Origin: Candidatus Poribacteria bacterium
Lineage (GTDB): Bacteria; Poribacteria; DTPJ01; WJIO01
Reading direction: 5' to 3'
Assembly: GCA_014730235.1 (NCBI GenBank)
Contig: WJIO01000426.1
Span: 1-12,687 of the forward strand
Length of the DNA stretch: 12,687 bases
The notes under the pieces are model-generated. The model did not search any database, was not told where the DNA came from, and saw only the letters and a list, made by a program, of their open reading frames with translations. Shown in pieces: positions 759 to 10,571 of this stretch. Positions within the stretch are counted from its first letter, which is position 1, and each line of letters starts with the position of its first letter. The translations under genes were made by a program, and so were the position numbers.

Positions 759-790
759 AAGGCAACGTTGTTAAAGACGTTGCCTTTTTT
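759..790 (+). terminator. Intrinsic terminator of the TIG/LysM gene
   Basis: A perfect 10-bp stem (AAGGCAACGT at 759-768 with ACGTTGCCTT at 777-786) closes an 8-base loop and runs into a T tract (785-790). It sits 21 bases after the stop codon of the + strand gene. The T tract overlaps the TAA stop (789-791) of the converging sigma-54 activator gene. On the - strand the stem is followed by TTAAAAA rather than a U-run, so it should work mainly for the + strand. Confidence 0.9.
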
Positions 791-2129
791 ATTTCTCTTT
801 GTATTGATGGAGTTTACTTCGGATGGTTTTACTCGTTATCCCTAGTATTTCCGATGTTTTTTGCTTATTACCACCAGAATATTCCAGAGTTCTCAGAATT
901 AATTCCTTTTCAGCGTCATAAATTGATGTTCCAAGTTTCAGAGAAATGTATCGGGATGGTTTTTTTCTTTTGGTAAGAAGCAGGTCATCTGGCTTTATGC
1001 TTTCACTTTCGGCAAGAGATAATGCCCTTTCGATAGTATTTTCAAGCTCTCTTACATTTCCAGGCCATGTGTGTTCTTTTAAAAACCCTACAGCATCCTG
1101 AGAGATGTCTTTATGCTTTATACCGACTTTTGAGCAAAATTTATTTATGAAGTATTGGGCCAGGATTGGAATATCATCTTCTCTTTCTCTCAAAGGCGGT
1201 AGAAAGATCGGTACCACACAAAGTCTGTAAAAAAGGTCTTCCCGAAAATTTCCTTTTTCCACCTCTTTAATCAAGTCCTTATTGGTAGTAGCGACAACCC
1301 GTACATCAACCCCAATAGATTGAGTCCCACCTACTCTTACTATCTCCCTCTCCTGAAGAGCCCGGAGGAGCTTGGCCTGGAAAGGTATATCCATTTCACT
1401 TACCTCATCCAAGAGTAATGTTCCCCCATGAGCCAGTTCAAATTTGCCTATTCTCCTGGCAACAGCACCGGTGAATGAGCCTCTTTCATGTCCAAATAAT
1501 TCGCTTTCAATAAGTCCTTCAGGTAATGCAGCACAATTGACAGCAACATAAGCCCCATCAGAACGATGACTCAATCTATGGATAGCCCTGGCTATCAGTT
1601 CTTTTCCCGTTCCGCTTTCTCCCTGGATCAAAACCGTTGAATCGGTCTGAGCGATTCTTCTGACTTTTTTCATAATCTCAAGCATTTCCGGATCTTCTGT
1701 AATTATACCATGTTTTGGATTATGATGACTAATAAATTTTTCTGCAATATTTATCTTGTTTTTGTTCTGACTTGAAATAGCTTTCCTTATAATTTCCCCG
1801 ATGTCAGAATTGGAAAAGGGTTTCATTATAAAGTCATAAGCACCATGCTTCATAGCTTCAACGGCAGTCTGAATAGTGCCATATCCCGTTATAATTATAA
1901 CAGGAACTTCCGGCGCAATATCTTTTGTCTTCAGAAGAAGCTGCATACCATCCAGCTTCGGCATGTTTATATCAGTTATAATTACAGAAGGTATTTCTTT
2001 TTTTATAAATTCCAGGGCTTCATGGCCGTTATATGCTTTATAAGTCTTATATCCGTTACGTTTTATAAGTTCATCTAGAGACTCGCACACCAAGGGTTCA
2101 TCATCTACAATCAATACCTGATCTTGCAT
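789..2129 (-). CDS. Sigma-54-dependent response regulator, FlrC/FleR type (NtrC family)
   Basis: 446 aa, the usual NtrC-family length. Receiver, residues 1-120: acidic pair D9/D10, phosphoacceptor D53, T81, K103. AAA+ domain, about 145-375: Walker A GESGTGKE (170-177), sigma-54 contact loop GSFTGA (217-222; serine instead of the commoner alanine), Walker B GTLLLDE (236-242), sensor I around 279-286, R296, and sensor II WPGNVRELEN (355-364). A Fis-type HTH lies at about 412-441. The lead-in GTSIYDAEKELILRTL resembles FlrC/FleR, the activators of sigma-54 class III flagellar genes, and the neighbouring FlrB-like gene and filament operon support that role. The ATG at 2129 follows an AGGGGGG ribosome-binding site at about 4 bases. 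All catalytic residues look intact. How D53 gets its phosphate is unclear because the adjacent kinase lacks its histidine. Confidence 0.9.
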   Translation of the reverse strand: MQDQVLIVDDEPLVCESLDELIKRNGYKTYKAYNGHEALEFIKKEIPSVIITDINMPKLDGMQLLLKTKDIAPEVPVIIITGYGTIQTAVEAMKHGAYDFIMKPFSNSDIGEIIRKAISSQNKNKINIAEKFISHHNPKHGIITEDPEMLEIMKKVRRIAQTDSTVLIQGESGTGKELIARAIHRLSHRSDGAYVAVNCAALPEGLIESELFGHERGSFTGAVARRIGKFELAHGGTLLLDEVSEMDIPFQAKLLRALQEREIVRVGGTQSIGVDVRVVATTNKDLIKEVEKGNFREDLFYRLCVVPIFLPPLREREDDIPILAQYFINKFCSKVGIKHKDISQDAVGFLKEHTWPGNVRELENTIERALSLAESESIKPDDLLLTKRKKPSRYISLKLGTSIYDAEKELILRTLEYSGGNKQKTSEILGITSKTIRSKLHQYKEK

Positions 2130-2333: not shown

Positions 2334-3086
2334 CTAAAAATAAGCTGGTAACATAAAATTAACCGAAGTTCCACAGTCTGCAACGCTTTTGATCTGAATT
2401 TCTCCATTATGCGCTTTTATGATTTTATATACTATACATAAACCCAGTCCGGCGTCATTTTCTTTTGTTGTAAAAAACGGCACAAAAAGTCTACTCATAT
2501 TTTCTGCACATACTCCACAACCAGAGTCTTTGATCTCTATATTTATGTATCTTTTATCGTTGGTATATGAAGCATTAATCCTTAATTCCCCTCCATTGGG
2601 CATGGCTTGGATAGCGTTTAGGATAAGATTAAAAAACACCTGTTTAATTTGTTCCATATCTGCAAAACAATACATATCATTCAATTCAAACGATCTGATA
2701 AGAGAGATATTTTGCTGTTTAATAGCCGGTAGTGAATAACTAAGGGATTCTTCTATAGCTTCAGATAAGTTTATCCTCTGAAAATCTGGCTTTACCGGTT
2801 GTGCGAAAGACAGCAAATTTGACAGGATAACGTCAAGAGAATTAACTCCGACTAGTATATTTCTGGCAATCCTCTGTTTATCTCCATCCAGATCCTGATA
2901 TAGAAGTTCCGCAAATAGTTTTACAGCACTAAGGGGACTTCGCATTTTTTGCGTAAGTTCCACTATAACATCACCCATTATGTTAAGAAGGGATGTCATA
3001 TCTCTTGAATTCGATTCTGTATCCGAACAATTTATTATATCAGAAAGATGACTTACCTTTATGTCTTTACCTTCTATTTCCATCAT
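2334..3086 (-). CDS. FlrB/FleS-like histidine kinase homologue lacking the phosphoacceptor histidine
   Basis: 250 aa, cytoplasmic, with no membrane segment and no clear PAS domain. Residues about 35-95 are the two-helix dimerisation domain: the H-box reads LTQKMRSPLSAVKLFAELL (44-62), where FlrB/FleS-type kinases have A/S-H-E-I-R-x-P-L. The histidine position is Q46 (codon CAA, bases 2949-2951) and the next acidic residue is K47. The HATPase half looks complete: N-box N153/N157 (NLILNAIQAM), G1 DSGCG (187-191), F-box FVPFFTTK (201-208), G2 AGLGL (212-216). It should bind ATP but cannot autophosphorylate in the normal way. It lies upstream of, and codirectional with, the FlrC-like activator, as flrB and flrC do. 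Start ATG at 3086; a second ATG follows directly at 3083. An exact sigma-28 -10 box upstream hints that FliA controls it. It may be a regulatory pseudokinase or may phosphorylate another protein. Confidence 0.85.
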   Translation of the reverse strand: MMEIEGKDIKVSHLSDIINCSDTESNSRDMTSLLNIMGDVIVELTQKMRSPLSAVKLFAELLYQDLDGDKQRIARNILVGVNSLDVILSNLLSFAQPVKPDFQRINLSEAIEESLSYSLPAIKQQNISLIRSFELNDMYCFADMEQIKQVFFNLILNAIQAMPNGGELRINASYTNDKRYINIEIKDSGCGVCAENMSRLFVPFFTTKENDAGLGLCIVYKIIKAHNGEIQIKSVADCGTSVNFMLPAYF

Positions 3087-3287: not shown

Positions 3288-4886
3288 GTGGCGCAAGCTG
3301 ATTTTACGAGAATTTCTACAAACATAGCAGCGCTTAATACACTTAACTCTTTGAGGAATATAAACTCAAAATTGGGTGTATCTCAGTTACGACTGGCAAC
3401 AGGTAAACGCATTAACCAGGCTTCCGACGATCCGGCAGGTTTAACTATCGCTCTTAAGATGAATGCCCGTAATGAGGGCCTGAAAGCAGCTATAGGAAAC
3501 CTCGGTGATGCCAAGAACATGCTGGCTGTTGCTGAGAGTGGTGTACAAAAGATCAGTGACATTTTGACGGAGATGAAGGCCAAGGCGACATCGGCAGCAT
3601 CTGAAACATTAGGTACTGAAGAACGAGATGCTATAAAGAACCAGTTAGAATCTCTGGCAACTCAGATTAATGACATCGTAGATGAAACAGAGTGGAACGG
3701 TTCAATGCTGTTGGATGGTACAGTAAGTAAGTCCCTGCAAACCGGGGCTGGTACAAATGACAAAACATCATGGGTGCTGAGTCAGAACCATAGCGCAACC
3801 GCGGAAGGTGGTCTTGGTTTGGGTACAAGTTCGGATGATATAACTTTATCCATTACCGATGGCTCAACGGTAGGTAGTTCTTTTGATGCTACCTATGGAG
3901 AATTAAACGGTGTCAGTGCTACTGACTCCACCTGGTTGACAGGACTATCCAGTGGAACTTATGAATTCAGAGTTGAGGATAAAGCTACAGACGCTACTAC
4001 AGGTAAAGCTGCAACAACAACAGGCGACTGGGGTGATAACGTAGATCTGGCTGGTGAAGCTCCTGACGATGAATTATCTTCAGGTGTTTACCGGATGCAT
4101 ATTGATACATCTACTGGTGCAGGTAAAGGAACGTATACGATTTATGATGCAGTTACCGGTGCTCAGGTGGCAAAAAGAACGACAGAAGTAGACTTCAGTG
4201 GCGGTGCTGCAAGTGTTGTAAACGATGCAGACGATGCCCTTGGTTTTACTATTGATGACTCTACAGATACAGCAATTTCTGCCGGTGATGACCTCTACTT
4301 TGAATACATAGAGTCTAATCATGCAAAGGTAGTTCTCTATGAAATAGGCACAGATACTGACGGTAGCGAAACAGCAACATCTATGGCTGTTGACGCTGAC
4401 GGATCTGATGCTGCTGATATAACCGATGCTACTGCAAATTACTTCTACGCAGAAGCCGAAACAACATATGATACTGGTCGTGGTATCGACGTGGATATGG
4501 GTGCATGGGCTGATATACAGACTTATGATGCTGATACAGACGAATCAACCACGAGATTTGACCTTATGGAAGCGGGTTCTGTAACCATAGCCCTGAACTC
4601 AGCATCCCAGGCAAATGATTTCATGACAATCGTTGATGAAGCAATTACTAAAGTTACGGACAGTCTTAACAGTGTTGGTTCACTGGTGGCAAGGCTGGAT
4701 GCTAAAGAGCAAGCAGTAGGTGTTCAACAGGTCAATACAGAAGCAGCTTATAACCGTATTATGAACGCTGACATGGCTTATGAACAGGTGGAAGCATCCA
4801 AGTATCAGATACTCCAGCAGACTGCTATTGCTATGTTATCTCAAGCTAACCTGGCACCGCAGAATATATTGTCACTGTTCCGTTAA
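3288..4886 (+). CDS. fliC: Flagellin with enlarged central domain
   Basis: 532 aa, the filament subunit exported by the flagellar type III system. The N-terminal D0/D1 region (1 to about 147) has the hallmark segments ISTNIAALNTLNSL, LATGKRINQASDDPAGL and EWNGSMLLDGT (W136). The C-terminal D1/D0 region begins near residue 430 and ends ILQQTAIAMLSQANLAPQNILSLFR-like, a typical flagellin terminus. The middle, about 150-430, is an Asp/Thr/Ala/Gly-rich, probably beta-rich insert forming the surface domains, and it has no family signature I can name. There is no cysteine. I take the GTG at 3288 as the start because an AAGGAGG ribosome-binding site lies 10 bases upstream and the protein begins MAQADFTRI. 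It is the first gene of the operon with fliS, fliD and flaG, driven by a sigma-28 promoter. Whether other flagellin copies exist elsewhere is unknown. The symbol is by function. Confidence 0.95.
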   Translation: MAQADFTRISTNIAALNTLNSLRNINSKLGVSQLRLATGKRINQASDDPAGLTIALKMNARNEGLKAAIGNLGDAKNMLAVAESGVQKISDILTEMKAKATSAASETLGTEERDAIKNQLESLATQINDIVDETEWNGSMLLDGTVSKSLQTGAGTNDKTSWVLSQNHSATAEGGLGLGTSSDDITLSITDGSTVGSSFDATYGELNGVSATDSTWLTGLSSGTYEFRVEDKATDATTGKAATTTGDWGDNVDLAGEAPDDELSSGVYRMHIDTSTGAGKGTYTIYDAVTGAQVAKRTTEVDFSGGAASVVNDADDALGFTIDDSTDTAISAGDDLYFEYIESNHAKVVLYEIGTDTDGSETATSMAVDADGSDAADITDATANYFYAEAETTYDTGRGIDVDMGAWADIQTYDADTDESTTRFDLMEAGSVTIALNSASQANDFMTIVDEAITKVTDSLNSVGSLVARLDAKEQAVGVQQVNTEAAYNRIMNADMAYEQVEASKYQILQQTAIAMLSQANLAPQNILSLFR

Positions 4887-4938
4887 ATGGTTTAACTGAA
4901 ACAACATAATAAAACATTTTTCATCTCTCAAATTCAAT

Positions 4939-4984
4939 GGTCTATTGACTTGGTAGACATGACTGTTTACTAAGCCAATAGACC
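4939..4984 (+). promoter_or_regulatory. Long stem-loop between flagellin and fliS
   Basis: GGTCTATTG (4939-4947) pairs perfectly with CAATAGACC (4976-4984). After a single A/C mismatch the stem continues with CTTGGTA (4949-4955) against TACTAAG (4968-4974), including one G-U pair, and closes a 12-base loop. It starts 53 bases after the flagellin stop and ends 26 bases before the fliS ATG. No U-run follows on either strand. It fits a transcript-stabilising or processing hairpin, or a partial terminator, that keeps flagellin mRNA more abundant than the downstream genes. That role is inferred. Confidence 0.7.
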
Positions 4985-5009
4985 TGTATCTGCTTATAGG
5001 GAATAGATT

Positions 5010-5333
5010 ATGTTAGCTCAAACAGCAACTCAAAGTTATCAACAAAATAGTGTTACAACAGCAGATCCCCTTAAGCTGATCCTTATGGTCTATGATAGAG
5101 CCATACATGGGTGTCAACAGAAAGATTTAAAGATGGTCGGAAGGGCCATTTCGGAATTAATCAGGGGATTAAATATGGACGCAGGGGAGATTTCATGGAA
5201 TTTATTATCCATATATGAATACTGCGGCGATCTTATCAGAGGTGGTAAGTATGATGAAGCTATGAATATCTTAAAAGAACTTCGGGATACATGGTCAAAC
5301 CTGAAAATGGTTGAAAAAACTAACGGAAGGTGA
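5010..5333 (+). CDS. fliS: Flagellin export chaperone FliS (short form)
   Basis: 107 aa, shorter than the usual 120-135. FliS binds the disordered C-terminus of flagellin in the cytoplasm, prevents early polymerisation and delivers it to the export gate. The N-terminal signature SYQQNSVTTADPLKLILMVYD (residues 9-29) is diagnostic, and the C-terminal LRDTW helix (about 91-95) is also typical. Compared with ordinary FliS, roughly ten residues are missing just after the first helix (AIHGCQQKDLK, where others have a longer alpha1-alpha2 region). The start ATG at 5010 has an AGGGA-type ribosome-binding site. It lies in the flagellin operon, 9 bases before fliD, with the fliD ribosome-binding site overlapping the fliS stop codon, which suggests coupled translation. 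Confidence 0.9.
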   Translation: MLAQTATQSYQQNSVTTADPLKLILMVYDRAIHGCQQKDLKMVGRAISELIRGLNMDAGEISWNLLSIYEYCGDLIRGGKYDEAMNILKELRDTWSNLKMVEKTNGR

Positions 5334-5342
5334 GAATACATT

Positions 5343-6728
5343 ATGGCTTTAATAGGTTCATCAGGCACAACAACAGCCCAAAACGGTCTTTCAGCAACAT
5401 ATCTCAACACAATAATAAAAGAGACTATAAACGCCGGTCGCAAACCTATAAATACCCTCAGTTCCCAGAAAAATCAATTGGGTGTTAAAAAAGCCATATA
5501 TAATGACCTTAAAAATAAGCTGTTGACATTTAAAGGTGTTATGGAAGACTTAACCAGCGACCACAGCGATACGGTCTTTGATAACATGAAAACCATATCC
5601 AGCGACACCGGCGTATTAACCGCCTCAGCCACATCGGAGGCCATTAACGGGAGTTATACCATATCAGTTAATAATCTGGCTGAATCTCACATGGTACATT
5701 CTGACCAGCAAGCCAGCAGTTCAGAGGCTTTGGGGTTTAGTGGAACCTTCACGATTAACGATGTTAGTATTGATATTACAACTGAAGATTCCCTGGCTGA
5801 TATAGTGGAAGCCATAAATATGGCAGAATATGAGGACGGAGAAGAGGTTACTGCCACTATTGTGGACAATTACCTCATTCTGGAATCCTCCTCAACAGGT
5901 GTGAGTAACAGCATAATTGCCAGTGATGACACAGGTGATGTGCTTTCAAGCCTGGGAGTTCTGGACGGTGGTAATTTTAAAAATACGCTCCAGGAAGCTG
6001 AGGACGCATCCTTTACAGTTAATGGTATTAGTATAACCCGCAGTTCAAATACAGAAATAGATGATGTAATCCAGGGTGTTACCCTGGATTTAAAAGGTGA
6101 AGGTACGGATATAGAATTAGATGTTTCAACAAATTACACCGATATACAGGTAAAGATAGCGGCATTTAAAAATAATCTTAACGATGTGATCGGATATCTT
6201 GGGGCAAAGTTAAAAACTACGATAAATGAAAAAAATAATACATACACCCGGGGTGCTCTGGCTGGTGAGACAGTTTTCTCCAGATTAAGGATGGATTTAA
6301 TTGGAGCCTTAAGAACCCATGTAACAGCTTCTGTTGAAGGTGATCCCCAATATCTTGAGGATATTGGGCTAACTGTTGGCAGCGGCTTAAGCATTAATCT
6401 TGATGAAAGCACTTTGTTATCAACCCTGGAGAGTAACTTTGATGGGGTTGTTAATCTGTTTGACCAGGTTATGGATAACTTTTTAAATATACTGGAACCC
6501 TTTACAACTCAAAGTTCATCCTCAAATACCCTGGATGTCTACATAAATTCCGTTGACACAAAGATCGATTCAATAGATACAAAGATTGAAGGAATAGAAA
6601 AATCGCTGCAATATAAACAAGATCTGCTGATAAAACAGTATAGTTCATTATATCTACAAAATATTAATTTTACTCAGCAGCAGTATAGTTTACTTGGAAT
6701 ATACAGCAACTTAAACATCAGTGGTTGA
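5343..6728 (+). CDS. fliD: Flagellar filament cap protein FliD (HAP2)
   Basis: 461 aa, in the normal FliD range. It forms the cap at the filament tip that guides insertion of flagellin. The N-terminal FliD domain (about 10-110) has the usual amphipathic start NTIIKETINAGRKPINTLSSQ and the K-x-x-Y-N-D-L-K-N-K-L segment. Flagellin-IN-like stretches follow at about 135-180 (FTINDVSIDITTEDSLADIVEAIN) and near 222-240. The C-terminal domain (about 240-461) ends in coiled-coil heptads (VDTKIDSIDTKIEGIEKSL) and a Gln-rich terminal helix typical of FliD. The ATG at 5343 follows GGAAGGTGAG, which overlaps the end of fliS. The gene order flagellin-fliS-fliD-flaG differs from the gamma-proteobacterial flagellin-flaG-fliD-fliS. 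Confidence 0.93.
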   Translation: MALIGSSGTTTAQNGLSATYLNTIIKETINAGRKPINTLSSQKNQLGVKKAIYNDLKNKLLTFKGVMEDLTSDHSDTVFDNMKTISSDTGVLTASATSEAINGSYTISVNNLAESHMVHSDQQASSSEALGFSGTFTINDVSIDITTEDSLADIVEAINMAEYEDGEEVTATIVDNYLILESSSTGVSNSIIASDDTGDVLSSLGVLDGGNFKNTLQEAEDASFTVNGISITRSSNTEIDDVIQGVTLDLKGEGTDIELDVSTNYTDIQVKIAAFKNNLNDVIGYLGAKLKTTINEKNNTYTRGALAGETVFSRLRMDLIGALRTHVTASVEGDPQYLEDIGLTVGSGLSINLDESTLLSTLESNFDGVVNLFDQVMDNFLNILEPFTTQSSSSNTLDVYINSVDTKIDSIDTKIEGIEKSLQYKQDLLIKQYSSLYLQNINFTQQQYSLLGIYSNLNISG

Positions 6729-6752
6729 TATACTGATATAAAAATAGATGAT

Positions 6753-6769
6753 GGAGGTGAACCCTGTTG
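6753..6769 (+). promoter_or_regulatory. Ribosome-binding site and TTG start of flaG
   Basis: A strong GGAGGTGA (6753-6760) lies 6 bases before TTG at 6767-6769. The nearby ATGs at 6748 and 6751 are in a different frame and overlap the ribosome-binding site, so TTG is the best start for FlaG. Confidence 0.75.
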
Positions 6770-7150
6770 GAGGTTCAATCTTTAGCTCCATTGAAATTAA
6801 GCTCAGGTAAATTTTCTCCTCAGACGGAAAAAATGCCTGATACTAAAACTTCATTCAATGACGATGCACAGTCGCCAAAATCACCACAATTACAGGAAGA
6901 AGCGCAATCTTCACAGGCAAGGGATTCATTGGAAAATGAGATAAAAAGCTTTGCGGAGGAGTCGGAAAAAATTGATCTTTCTAACAGTCGTATTTCGTTC
7001 TCAGAAGACCAGGATACTGGCGCGACTGTGATAAAGATAATTGATAATAAAACCGATGAAGTAATCAAGCAGATACCACCTGAAGAAATACTGAAATTAA
7101 GAAAGAGGATTGGAGAAATGCTTGGGCTTCTTCTGGATAAGAAGGTTTAA
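6767..7150 (+). CDS. flaG: FlaG family flagellar protein
   Basis: 127 aa. The N-terminal half (1 to about 55) is polar, Ser/Gln-rich and probably disordered. The C-terminal half, about 70-127, is the FlaG domain: ISFSEDQDTGATVIKIIDNKT, then DEVIKQIPPEEILKLRKRIGEMLGLLLDKKV. The V-I-K-Q-I-P-P-E-E-x-L signature is diagnostic. FlaG proteins affect filament length and often sit beside fliD, as here (38-base gap). Translation starts at TTG. The next gene begins 30 bases after the stop and in the same frame, so a readthrough fusion would be possible in principle, but nothing suggests it happens. Confidence 0.9.
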   Translation: MEVQSLAPLKLSSGKFSPQTEKMPDTKTSFNDDAQSPKSPQLQEEAQSSQARDSLENEIKSFAEESEKIDLSNSRISFSEDQDTGATVIKIIDNKTDEVIKQIPPEEILKLRKRIGEMLGLLLDKKV

Positions 7151-7180: not shown

Positions 7181-7909
7181 ATGCCCACAGAATATCTGTA
7201 TCCAAATTCAGAGGATAACCTGATTGAAAGAGCAAAATCTGTCGCTCATAGTCTGAATAATATGATGTCCATAGTTTTGACAAATTCTCAGTTGGCCATG
7301 GAGCATATAAACAATTCGGACAATAAATCGTATAAAGAGATATTAGATTGCCTTAAGGATATTGCCACAGCTACGGCTGATAGCGGTATTCTGGTTCACC
7401 ACTTCCAGAAATATCTGGATTCCCTGGTTGACGAAGAATATTCCCAACGGGATATAGAAATTTCCCCGGTTTTACCTCATCATCAATCTATCCTACCTCA
7501 TGAAAACAAAGATAAATCGTATAAATCGGTACAGAACATAAAACAGGTATCAATATTGATAATTGACGATGAAGATAAAATCCGCCATGCTCTTTCATAC
7601 GCTTTAACCCTGGCAGGACATCATGTTATAACGGCTTCAGATGGTGAAGAAGGCATATCTATTTTCAAGGATGGTTCTTACGATCTGGTATTTGTTGATC
7701 TCAAAATGCCGGATATGGACGGATGGGAAGTAATAAAGCAATTAAAATATATAGATCCCGATGTAATACTGGTCATTATGACTGGATGGCGGGTTAGTCT
7801 GGACGATAAAAGGCTACAGGAAAACGAAGTAGAAGCGGTAATCACAAAACCATTTGATCTTTCTGAAATAAATCGATTGCTTTACAAAATGCTAAATGAA
7901 GGTATATAA
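7181..7909 (+). CDS. DHp-like histidine phosphotransfer domain fused to a receiver, without kinase ATPase domain
   Basis: 242 aa, probably cytoplasmic. Residues about 12-85 form two helices matching the HisKA dimerisation/phosphotransfer pattern: helix 1 has AKSVAHSLNNMMSIV with H23 (codon CAT, 7247-7249) where kinases carry the phosphorylated histidine in the G-G-V-A-H-D-x-N-N-L form; helix 2 runs about 50-82. No N, G1, F or G2 ATP-binding boxes follow. A polar linker (about 85-120) leads to a complete receiver (121-240): D129/D130, phosphoacceptor D173, T201, K223. It has no DNA-binding domain. It is the last gene of the flagellin operon and converges with the next operon across a 9-base gap. 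The ATG at 7181 has no clear ribosome-binding site, and upstream in-frame codons up to the flaG stop give no better start. It could be a phosphorelay intermediate or a sink. The function is inferred. Confidence 0.85.
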   Translation: MPTEYLYPNSEDNLIERAKSVAHSLNNMMSIVLTNSQLAMEHINNSDNKSYKEILDCLKDIATATADSGILVHHFQKYLDSLVDEEYSQRDIEISPVLPHHQSILPHENKDKSYKSVQNIKQVSILIIDDEDKIRHALSYALTLAGHHVITASDGEEGISIFKDGSYDLVFVDLKMPDMDGWEVIKQLKYIDPDVILVIMTGWRVSLDDKRLQENEVEAVITKPFDLSEINRLLYKMLNEGI

Positions 7910-7918
7910 ACAGATTTA

Positions 7919-8473
7919 TTATATATTCTTAAGCACTTCGGTAACATTACGGGCAACAGATCTCTTAATCTCTTCACCTTTAGCCATTAGGTTTTCTTTA
8001 TGTGGACTGGGGTAACCACTGGTAGCAATGATCTTATTTGCGGTGTTGATGTATTCAATCATGGACTTTACACCTTCCAGAAGTCTTCTCTTGTATATTG
8101 ATGAAGCTCTCCATTTAGCCCTGGTCATAACCATGCCTATTTCATCTTTTTTGAAAGGTTTCAGTATATATTCATCCACCCCGCTTTTCATGGCCTCTTC
8201 AACACTGAATATCTCACTGTAACCAGTCATTACAACCACAGGCATACTGGGATTTATGCCCTTAATACTTTCCAGCAGTTGAAGTCCATTCATACCAGGC
8301 ATTTTCAGATCGGTCAAAACAGCATCAAAGGAACCATTATTGTTAAAAATTTCCAGGGCTTCTTCAGCATTTTCAGCCGTGATGATTTCTTTGGCCTGGT
8401 CTTCTAGCATTTCTGTGACCATCTCCCGCATCATTTCTTCATCATCTACAATTAATATCTTTTCAAAGTTCAT
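7919..8473 (-). CDS. Response regulator with receiver and C-terminal helical extension
   Basis: 184 aa. Receiver at 1-120: D10/D11, phosphoacceptor D55, T85-type switch in VVVMTGYS, and conserved lysine in ILKPF. Residues about 120-184 are helical and charged (RAKWRASSIYKRRLLEGVKSMIEYI...), with no HTH, GGDEF or other output signature I recognise, so output is probably by protein binding. It is the last gene of the flhG-fliA operon, starting 5 bases after the stop of the receiver-kinase gene, whose end supplies its ribosome-binding site. That kinase is the likely partner. It ends 9 bases from the converging DHp-receiver gene, with no proper terminator between them. Confidence 0.87.
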   Translation of the reverse strand: MNFEKILIVDDEEMMREMVTEMLEDQAKEIITAENAEEALEIFNNNGSFDAVLTDLKMPGMNGLQLLESIKGINPSMPVVVMTGYSEIFSVEEAMKSGVDEYILKPFKKDEIGMVMTRAKWRASSIYKRRLLEGVKSMIEYINTANKIIATSGYPSPHKENLMAKGEEIKRSVARNVTEVLKNI

Positions 8474-8478
8474 GATGC

Positions 8479-9612
8479 TTAGCCTTCATTTGCTATGGGT
8501 AAATATACATGAAATGTTGAACCTTTATTTTTTCGGCTTTCAACGGAAATAGCACCTTTATGCTTATTTATTATTCCGCTAACGGCTGAAAGTCCTAATC
8601 CTGCCCCCACAGTCTGTTTTGTGGTGAAAAAAGGCTCAAAAATGCGGTTAATTGTCTCCCGGTCTATACCAACGCCTTTATCTGTTATTGATGTAACCAA
8701 AAAATCGACATTTGTTTCTTCCGGTTCGCCAAAATATTTCTTTGTATCAAGTTTGTCTTTACTTATACTAATTGTTACAGGATCGCCATTGATGTTGGCT
8801 TCCTGGGCATTTATGAATATATTTGTAAAAGCCTGAAGCAGTTGCTCCGGGTCTCCCTTTATTGAAGGGACTTTTTCAGGGATCTGAATATCCACATTTA
8901 TCTTCTCAGACTTTTTATTTCCATATAAATAGACCATTTTGTTTAGCAATTCATCTATGTGGATTATACACATATCGCTTTTGCTGGCCCGGGAATACAT
9001 AAGAAGATTCTTTGTAAGGTCAGCGATGCGTTGGGATGCCTCAAGTATTCTATCGCTGTAGCGTATAGCTTTTTCATTACCCTCTACAGAGTTCTGAAGC
9101 ATATCAGCATATCCTATTACATTACCTATCAGGTTGTTTATGTTATGGGCAACTCCGCCAGCCAGAGTAGAAATACTTGCCATCTTCTGTGAGCGTAAAA
9201 GTTCTTTTTGATATTCCAGATTTTCTTCATTTGCCTCTTTGAGTTTTATTTGTGTACGAATCCTGGCCAATACCTCAGCAGGTTGAAAGGGTTTTGTTAT
9301 GTAATCTACAGCACCACATTCCAAACCTTTTACCTTATCAACGGTTTCGGATTTTGCAGTTATGAATATAACAGGTATATCTGCTGTAACCTGATTTTCC
9401 TTTAGTGAACGACACACCTCAAAACCGTCCATTTCAGGCATCATAATATCCAGAAGAATCAGGTCAGGTAATTCAGATACGGCCTTGTTATATCCATCAT
9501 TGCCATTATTTGATTGTATAGATTGATATCCAGCCTTCTGAATCAATTTTGACAACAGCAGTAAATTCATCCGTATATCATCTACAATAAGTATTTTGGG
9601 TGGATTGTTCAT
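8479..9612 (-). CDS. Receiver-histidine kinase (REC-HisKA-HATPase)
   Basis: 377 aa, soluble, no membrane segment. Receiver at 1-120: D11/D12, phosphoacceptor D55, T85, K107. A coiled linker covers 121-145. The HisKA domain has its H-box at 149-165 (TLAGGVAHNINNLIGNV) with H156. The HATPase has N-box FTNIFINAQEA (N268), G1 DKGVG (311-315), F-box EPFFTTK and G2 GAGLGL (336-341). All catalytic residues appear present, so this is the one apparently complete kinase in the window. The receiver placed before the kinase suggests the kinase is itself controlled by an upstream phosphodonor. It begins 8 bases after the SwrB-like gene and is followed 5 bases later by the response regulator. Membership of the fliA operon suggests a role in flagellar control or motility. 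The input signal is unknown. Confidence 0.9.
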   Translation of the reverse strand: MNNPPKILIVDDIRMNLLLLSKLIQKAGYQSIQSNNGNDGYNKAVSELPDLILLDIMMPEMDGFEVCRSLKENQVTADIPVIFITAKSETVDKVKGLECGAVDYITKPFQPAEVLARIRTQIKLKEANEENLEYQKELLRSQKMASISTLAGGVAHNINNLIGNVIGYADMLQNSVEGNEKAIRYSDRILEASQRIADLTKNLLMYSRASKSDMCIIHIDELLNKMVYLYGNKKSEKINVDIQIPEKVPSIKGDPEQLLQAFTNIFINAQEANINGDPVTISISKDKLDTKKYFGEPEETNVDFLVTSITDKGVGIDRETINRIFEPFFTTKQTVGAGLGLSAVSGIINKHKGAISVESRKNKGSTFHVYLPIANEG

Positions 9613-9620
9613 AACAATAT

Positions 9621-10538
9621 TTAACCTTTGGCTTTAGATTTATATATGTCCAGTATTAGATTAACTTCTCCAATAGGAATGTTGCTTCTTTTTGAAATTT
9701 CAAACCTATCTATCCCCAGCTTTGCCAACTTCAGGATCTTCTTATATTTACCCTGATAGGGGTTATCCTTTTCAAAATTATTAACTATATCCATTTTTTT
9801 ATTTTTTCCGCCTGATTTTCCTTTGCCTTTTTTAGGTATATCTATAATATCGGCAAAAGATTTTTTTTTCTTTAGATAATCCGGGGAATTTTCTATCATA
9901 CTATACAGTCTTTTTAATTTAAATCTCATATATATTAAGCCAGATACAAGAAGAATACATAAAAAAGTCTGTATTATATCATAATAAATCTGCATTAACT
10001 CGTTATCCATTGACATAAAAATCGGCAAAACCCTGGCGGACAGGTGCGATTTTTCATCTTTATTAATACTGGCTTTAGTAATATTTTCAACTTCTGGCTT
10101 TATTGCGTCTTTTGGTGTATCCAAAACCTTTGTATTCTGAGCAAAAACCACAGGAATTTTTTCCTTCATAATATCAACAGCTATTTGATTTGGGATTTCA
10201 AGAGGGATAACGTTAAAATAGTTTTTGTCTTTTAAATGTATATTAACAATAACCATATTTTCCAGAACATCCCGAAGGGTTACAATTCCTACCATATCGC
10301 TGTCGATATTCATGACTTTATTTATATTCCCCAGATTTGACTTTGGAAAATACAGGGAAAGTAACCGAGATTCGTGGGTATATTGAAACTGGTATTCGAC
10401 GGGTTTATCAAATTGGAAAACAATCCTGGTTCTGGTATCGTCAATATTTATCCAGGTGTTTGTCAATTCTGTACCATAAACAACAGGAATTATCACTAAA
10501 GACATAAAAATTGCTGTTATTATGGAGTAAATTTTCAT
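9621..10538 (-). CDS. SwrB-like bitopic membrane protein with extracytoplasmic beta domain
   Basis: 305 aa from the ATG at 10538. That ATG has GGAGGTGG six bases upstream; the upstream in-frame GTG at 10547 lies inside this ribosome-binding site, so I reject it. Order: signal peptide (1-22), an extracytoplasmic beta-rich region (about 25-125) whose alternating strands (TRIVFQFDKPVEYQF, LLSLYFPKS, IAVDI) resemble AMIN-type domains, a linker, a membrane segment (about 184-204, IIQTFLCILLVSGLIYMRF), a Lys-rich cytoplasmic stretch (221-250) and a C-terminal HTH-like motif (264-300: YKKILKLAKLGIDRFEISKR...PIGEVNLILDIYKS). That motif resembles the tail of SwrB/DUF2802/DUF6115 proteins. In Bacillus, swrB directly follows sigD and activates flagellar export. 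Here the gene lies two genes downstream of fliA. Role inferred: promoting basal body or export maturation. Confidence 0.75.
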   Translation of the reverse strand: MKIYSIITAIFMSLVIIPVVYGTELTNTWINIDDTRTRIVFQFDKPVEYQFQYTHESRLLSLYFPKSNLGNINKVMNIDSDMVGIVTLRDVLENMVIVNIHLKDKNYFNVIPLEIPNQIAVDIMKEKIPVVFAQNTKVLDTPKDAIKPEVENITKASINKDEKSHLSARVLPIFMSMDNELMQIYYDIIQTFLCILLVSGLIYMRFKLKRLYSMIENSPDYLKKKKSFADIIDIPKKGKGKSGGKNKKMDIVNNFEKDNPYQGKYKKILKLAKLGIDRFEISKRSNIPIGEVNLILDIYKSKAKG

Positions 10539-10571
10539 AATAACCACCTCCAGTATATAGCTGCATTAGTT

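Follow-up and report, generated by a model that had tools for sequence, protein, structure and literature searches.

Spo0B and ChpT retain an ATPase-like C-terminal domain and carry no receiver. Both are dimeric proteins that come from degenerate kinases (PMC5898713). PhyT, which has the motif HRxxN and a degenerate ATPase domain, is a demonstrated phosphotransferase: phosphate passes from a receiver protein to the PhyT histidine and from there to another receiver, while phosphatase activity was not seen (PMC5898713). In HisKA domains, the acid after the histidine serves the kinase chemistry and not the phosphatase reaction, and CrdS, HK853 and other kinases depend on it for their autophosphorylation, while the Thr or Asn at the +4 position serves the phosphatase reaction and not the kinase one (PMC3510030).

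HisKA proteins without a HATPase domain are already in the literature as a general possibility; they make up 3.66% of the HisKA proteins in SMART and were proposed to be potential split bifunctional kinases (PMC3591291). In the split kinases CheA3/CheA4 of R. sphaeroides (PMC3591291) and Hik36/Hik43 (PMC7656254) the phospho-accepting His and the ATPase are located on separate proteins, and EnvZ divided into two pieces keeps its activity (PMC3591291). The intermediate receivers of the CckA class have lost the aromatic-switch coupling (PMC9981736).

The stretch of DNA analyzed here, called the window, consists of 12,687 nucleotides of a Candidatus Poribacteria bacterium (contig WJIO01000426.1), whose draft genome comprises 5.5 Mb in 451 contigs. 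It is a flagellar locus, in which the plus strand carries flagellin, fliS, fliD and flaG, followed by the gene of a DHp-receiver protein (Table 1). The open-reading frame of this gene is real and complete, with an ATG start. Convergent with it, the minus strand carries a receiver gene, a receiver-kinase gene and more flagellar genes, some of which we take, by their translations, to be FlhG-like and FliA-like.

The preliminary description regarded the gene as co-transcribed with the filament genes. This is plausible, as it begins 30 bp after flaG on the same strand, although it is preceded by no strong ribosome-binding site. The search for a sigma-54 or sigma-28 promoter gave no outstanding candidate.

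Several other features of the surroundings were observed. The protein encoded at 108–737, where the flagellar locus borders on other sequence, contains bacterial Ig-like (Big_5) and LysM domains, and that encoded at 9621–10547, in the fliA cluster, has a C-terminus similar to DUF6115/DUF2802. The C-terminal extension of the neighboring receiver comprises ~70 residues and matches no Pfam family. In the receiver-kinase, the His is followed by Asn instead of Glu/Asp (AHNINN). A further, weaker match to the flagellin C-terminus is found elsewhere in the genome (G000:C101:8477-8725).

Table 1. Genes and protein regions of the window discussed in the text.
Feature	Position in the window	Strand	Remarks
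FlrC-like sigma-54 activator, receiver intact (D53, K103)	789–2129	-	Possible final target
FlrB-like kinase, ATPase mostly kept, no PAS	2334–3086	-	QKMRS in place of HE/DxxN, H replaced by Q46; DAGLGL in place of GTGLGL
flagellin, fliS, fliD, flaG	3288–7150	+	Immediately 5' of the DHp-receiver gene
DHp-receiver protein without ATPase, 242 aa	7181–7909	+	Complete ORF, Pfam, AlphaFold
DHp-like helical hairpin, residues 11–83	7211–7429	+	Own profile, AlphaFold, DHp alignment
H23 codon; N26/N27 codons	7247–7249; 7256–7261	+	
Disordered linker, residues 85–119	7433–7537	+	AlphaFold pLDDT <50; occupies the place of the ATPase in hybrid kinases
Receiver, hybrid-kinase (intermediate) class	7544–7906	+	D173 (codon 7697–7699), T201, K223, V220
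Receiver with C-terminal extension	7919–8473	-	Convergent with the DHp-receiver gene, ~10 bp between them; candidate partner
Receiver-DHp-ATPase kinase, motif HNxxN	8479–9612	-	Candidate phosphate source

The N-terminal part of the DHp-receiver protein is a DHp-like hairpin. Pfam HisKA does not match the protein itself, and it matches the helix pair of the homolog from a second genome, G001, with E=0.0011, below the gathering score. The homology is therefore shown by our own HisKA-hairpin profile, made from eight kinase DHp hairpins, on which residues 18–85 score 37.7 bits, while the maximum among 10,000 shuffles of two query hairpins was 13.9. The AlphaFold model of the monomer contains two antiparallel helices, residues 11–42 and 49–83, with H23 in the first of them, and the hairpin modeled separately has a mean pLDDT of 82. 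In an alignment of ten DHp sequences the only invariant residues are H23, N26 and N27. Profile, model and alignment together bear out the HisKA-like helix pair with a well-placed H23 that had been described earlier. In comparison with the HisKA motif H-E/D-x-x-T/N, the sequence H-S-L-N-N possesses the His and the Asn at the +4 position, while the acid is replaced by Ser.

A PDB sequence search with the hairpin as query returned nothing. With the hairpin alone, Foldseek places FixL-type LOV-histidine kinases at ranks 1–6 and 8, at weak E-values of 0.05–0.3, and the list of a second structure aligner contains no kinase DHp domains. The hairpin resembles many helix pairs, and the weak match is as expected with any short helix pair, so this comparison of folds is taken as supportive only.

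No ATPase domain is found between or after the hairpin and the receiver by Pfam, by alignment or by AlphaFold, in agreement with the preliminary description; a linker of ~35 residues is present instead. The sole Pfam domain found in the protein is Response_reg (residues 125–231, E=3e-22), and AlphaFold delimits the receiver to residues 123–240. The receiver is complete, as had been noted, with the catalytic residues D129/D130, D173, T201 and K223 all present, and when the whole model is compared by fold, receivers fill the match list. The CpdR and CckA models of NCBIfam are among the three best profile matches. The aromatic switch position is occupied by V220, which fits the intermediate class described for CckA, where the residue at this position varies and is often not aromatic (PMC9981736); Val is found there also in several hybrid receivers, while Tyr or Phe occupies this position in 28 of the 29 non-hybrid receivers of the genome, a count that leaves out a protein cut by a contig end.

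Both remaining domains can be traced to hybrid kinases. When the protein is compared with DHp-ATPase-receiver kinases, its two ends align and exactly the ATPase is missing. Its DHp aligns over both helices with kinases of this architecture from its own genome (G000:C305), from the same phylum (G057) and from elsewhere (G099). A tree was made of 63 receivers, most of which come from its own genome. In it, the receivers of the DHp-receiver protein and of its homolog form one clade (100/96), which nests in a supported clade of 15 rows (97/91); the other rows of the latter are C-terminal receivers of hybrid kinases, with the exception of one protein truncated at the end of its contig. Both domains thus give good support to the descent from a hybrid kinase, and by its sequence the protein is a hybrid histidine kinase minus its ATPase domain. 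Its DHp belongs to the H-D/E-F-N-N class of the hybrid kinases, different from the DHp of FlrB; the protein is not derived from FlrB and its parent is of a different kinase class. An assembly artifact was rejected, the core being common to two independent genomes, and so was a frameshifted kinase, the short linker containing no remnant of an ATPase.

The DHp-receiver core is rare. It is present in two of the 84 genomes of the phylum, its own and G001, which belongs to the same order. The G001 homolog, of 287 aa (L010 1324-2187, G001:C4), has a double zinc ribbon in front, followed by the same hairpin and the same receiver class in an ATPase-less core. The two proteins share 38% identity over the common part and 34% in the hairpin. 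The homolog has the motif H-H-I-N-N, in which the His and both Asn are present and the acid is replaced by His, and all catalytic residues of the receiver are retained in both members. With two members known, the expected conservation of H23 holds in one comparison. The homolog is located outside the flagellar loci, directly after a gene that presumably, by its translation, encodes a membrane spermidine-synthase-like protein, and the flagellin-fliS-fliD-flaG locus of G001 is present without a DHp-receiver gene.

A scan of the contigs of its own genome gave no second DHp-receiver protein, the matches being receivers and hybrid kinases, and no relative turned up among plasmids and viruses. In 790 genomes of two other phyla no relative was found at E 1e-28, in a search that scored the seven best candidates per genome in a set without a positive control. 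Searches around other genomes returned full kinases or nothing.

The FlrB-like kinase of the window lacks the His and has an ATPase domain, as had been reported. The N box and the G1 box of this domain are retained, while in the G2 box, which reads GTGLGL or GSGLGL in the relatives, the first Gly is replaced by Asp, and the PAS domain found in the relatives is absent. The histidine motif is HEIRN or HDLRN in the relatives, HQMKS in the nearest relative, that of G001, and QKMRS in the window, a series that points to an early loss of the acid and the phosphatase Asn, with the His disappearing last. Having lost the His, the acid and the Asn as well as the PAS domain and the first Gly of its G2 box, the FlrB of the window is by sequence a pseudokinase, perhaps one that still binds ATP.

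The DHp-receiver protein cannot form its own phosphohistidine and, having lost the ATPase domain, probably passes phosphate between other proteins. One proposed source of this phosphate was FlrB, the ATPase of which would bind the DHp-receiver protein and phosphorylate H23 in trans, so that the flow of phosphate to FlrC is restored. The proposal has precedents in CheA3/CheA4 and in the divided EnvZ, and FlrB retains most of its ATPase motifs in spite of the missing His. However, the acid after the His is gone in both DHp-receiver proteins (Ser here, His in G001), the G2 box of FlrB is damaged, none of the three catalytic residues is left in its own DHp, and the DHp containing H23 is of another class. 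The expected co-occurrence with a His-less FlrB also fails in the one comparison available, where G001 has a DHp-receiver protein, yet its FlrB possesses the His and the gene is missing from its flagellar locus. A split kinase is therefore very improbable. The best-supported reading is the other role suggested for the protein, in which it acts as a relay or sink in the manner of Spo0B and ChpT, with the receiver-kinase as a candidate donor by position only. That the protein is a phosphate-passing module derived from a hybrid kinase is, in our estimate, just about probable. The hairpin would dimerize the protein, H23 would act as a phosphotransfer histidine of the Spo0B/ChpT/PhyT type and D173 as an intermediate receiver of the CckA type. 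Phosphate would be supplied by another kinase or receiver, the neighboring receiver-kinase and receiver being the first candidates from their position, and would reach a flagellar regulator, FlrC for example, by way of D173 and H23, or flow backwards from it as in a drain. The lack of the acid in both members, their retention of the His and Asn, and the analogy with PhyT favor such a shuttle. The protein shares with Spo0B, ChpT and PhyT a kinase-derived DHp without a working ATPase; it lacks their degenerate ATPase-like C-terminal domain, having the linker of ~35 residues instead.

In most respects this shuttle would resemble a phosphatase or a simple sink. A phosphatase, in which the hairpin dephosphorylates a partner receiver (that of FlrC or the convergent neighbor, for example) by means of N27 and the attached receiver regulates the activity, is unlikely, even though both members retain the Asn at His+4 and have lost the kinase-only acid, which is the combination expected from the need of HisKA phosphatases for Thr/Asn and their indifference to the acid (PMC3510030), and 711 ATPase-less HisKA proteins likewise retain the phosphatase motif (PMC3591291). 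PhyT, with the same kind of motif, HRxxN, showed no phosphatase activity (PMC5898713), and N26 and N27 are standard in the parent hybrid kinases too, so they may be inherited. The complete receiver, and the zinc ribbon that gives the homolog an N-terminus like that of a binding protein, are consistent with a scaffold, in which D173 is phosphorylated by another kinase, the hairpin serves only to join the two subunits of the dimer and H23 is vestigial. Retention of H23 and both Asn at 34% identity of the hairpin renders this improbable, and the absence of the aromatic switch residue from the receiver argues against an allosteric output. Nor does the rarity of the core (two of 84 genomes) beside a clearly eroding FlrB make a functionless, decaying remnant anything but very unlikely, since the frame is open, its codon-position composition resembles that of the neighboring genes, the receiver residues are all retained and a distant homolog has the same core. 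Overall, we favor the phosphate shuttle, followed by the phosphatase, the dimer or scaffold and, in fourth place, the split kinase with FlrB.

The shuttle would provide a clear case of how the loss of a single domain makes an ATPase-less phosphate carrier out of a hybrid kinase, one in which the parent type can be recognized from both flanking domains. The stepwise decay of the motif in the adjoining FlrB (HE/DxxN to HQxxS to QKxxS) bears on the rewiring of flagellar two-component systems when a kinase fails. In a bolder and decidedly speculative scenario, FlrB would be a dead pseudokinase and FlrC would obtain its phosphate via a receiver-DHp shuttle co-expressed with the filament genes; in the extreme version, the ATPase of FlrB would phosphorylate the shuttle in trans. 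If this were true, filament expression would feed back on its own regulator through the shuttle.

The likely parents of the DHp-receiver protein are hybrid kinases of the CckA type, such as G000:C305 with its 532-aa open frame, which have the same DHp class, receiver class and domain order; they possess an ATPase domain and Glu/Asp after the His, both of which are missing here. The CheA3/CheA4 and Hik36/Hik43 pairs use CheA-like or Hpt-type phosphotransfer domains, while the DHp-receiver protein contains a HisKA-type hairpin and its partner is putative. Like the HATPase-less HisKA proteins of SMART (PMC3591291), it has a HisKA domain without an ATPase, but it has also lost the acid of the HE/DxxN/T motif and has a receiver attached. 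PhyT of Sphingomonas melonis (formerly PhyP) likewise has Asn at the +4 position and no acid next to the His, and is derived from a kinase that has lost its ATPase function; it differs in being membrane-bound, in retaining a degenerate ATPase, in its putative periplasmic sensor domain and in its role in the general stress response (PMC5898713). Spo0B and ChpT similarly have DHp hairpins of the kinase type, which transfer phosphate without generating it, whereas the DHp-receiver protein has nothing left of the ATPase domain and has a receiver fused to it. What is new in this locus is the fusion to an intermediate receiver in a protein that has lost its ATPase completely, together with the traceable parentage and the decayed FlrB nearby.
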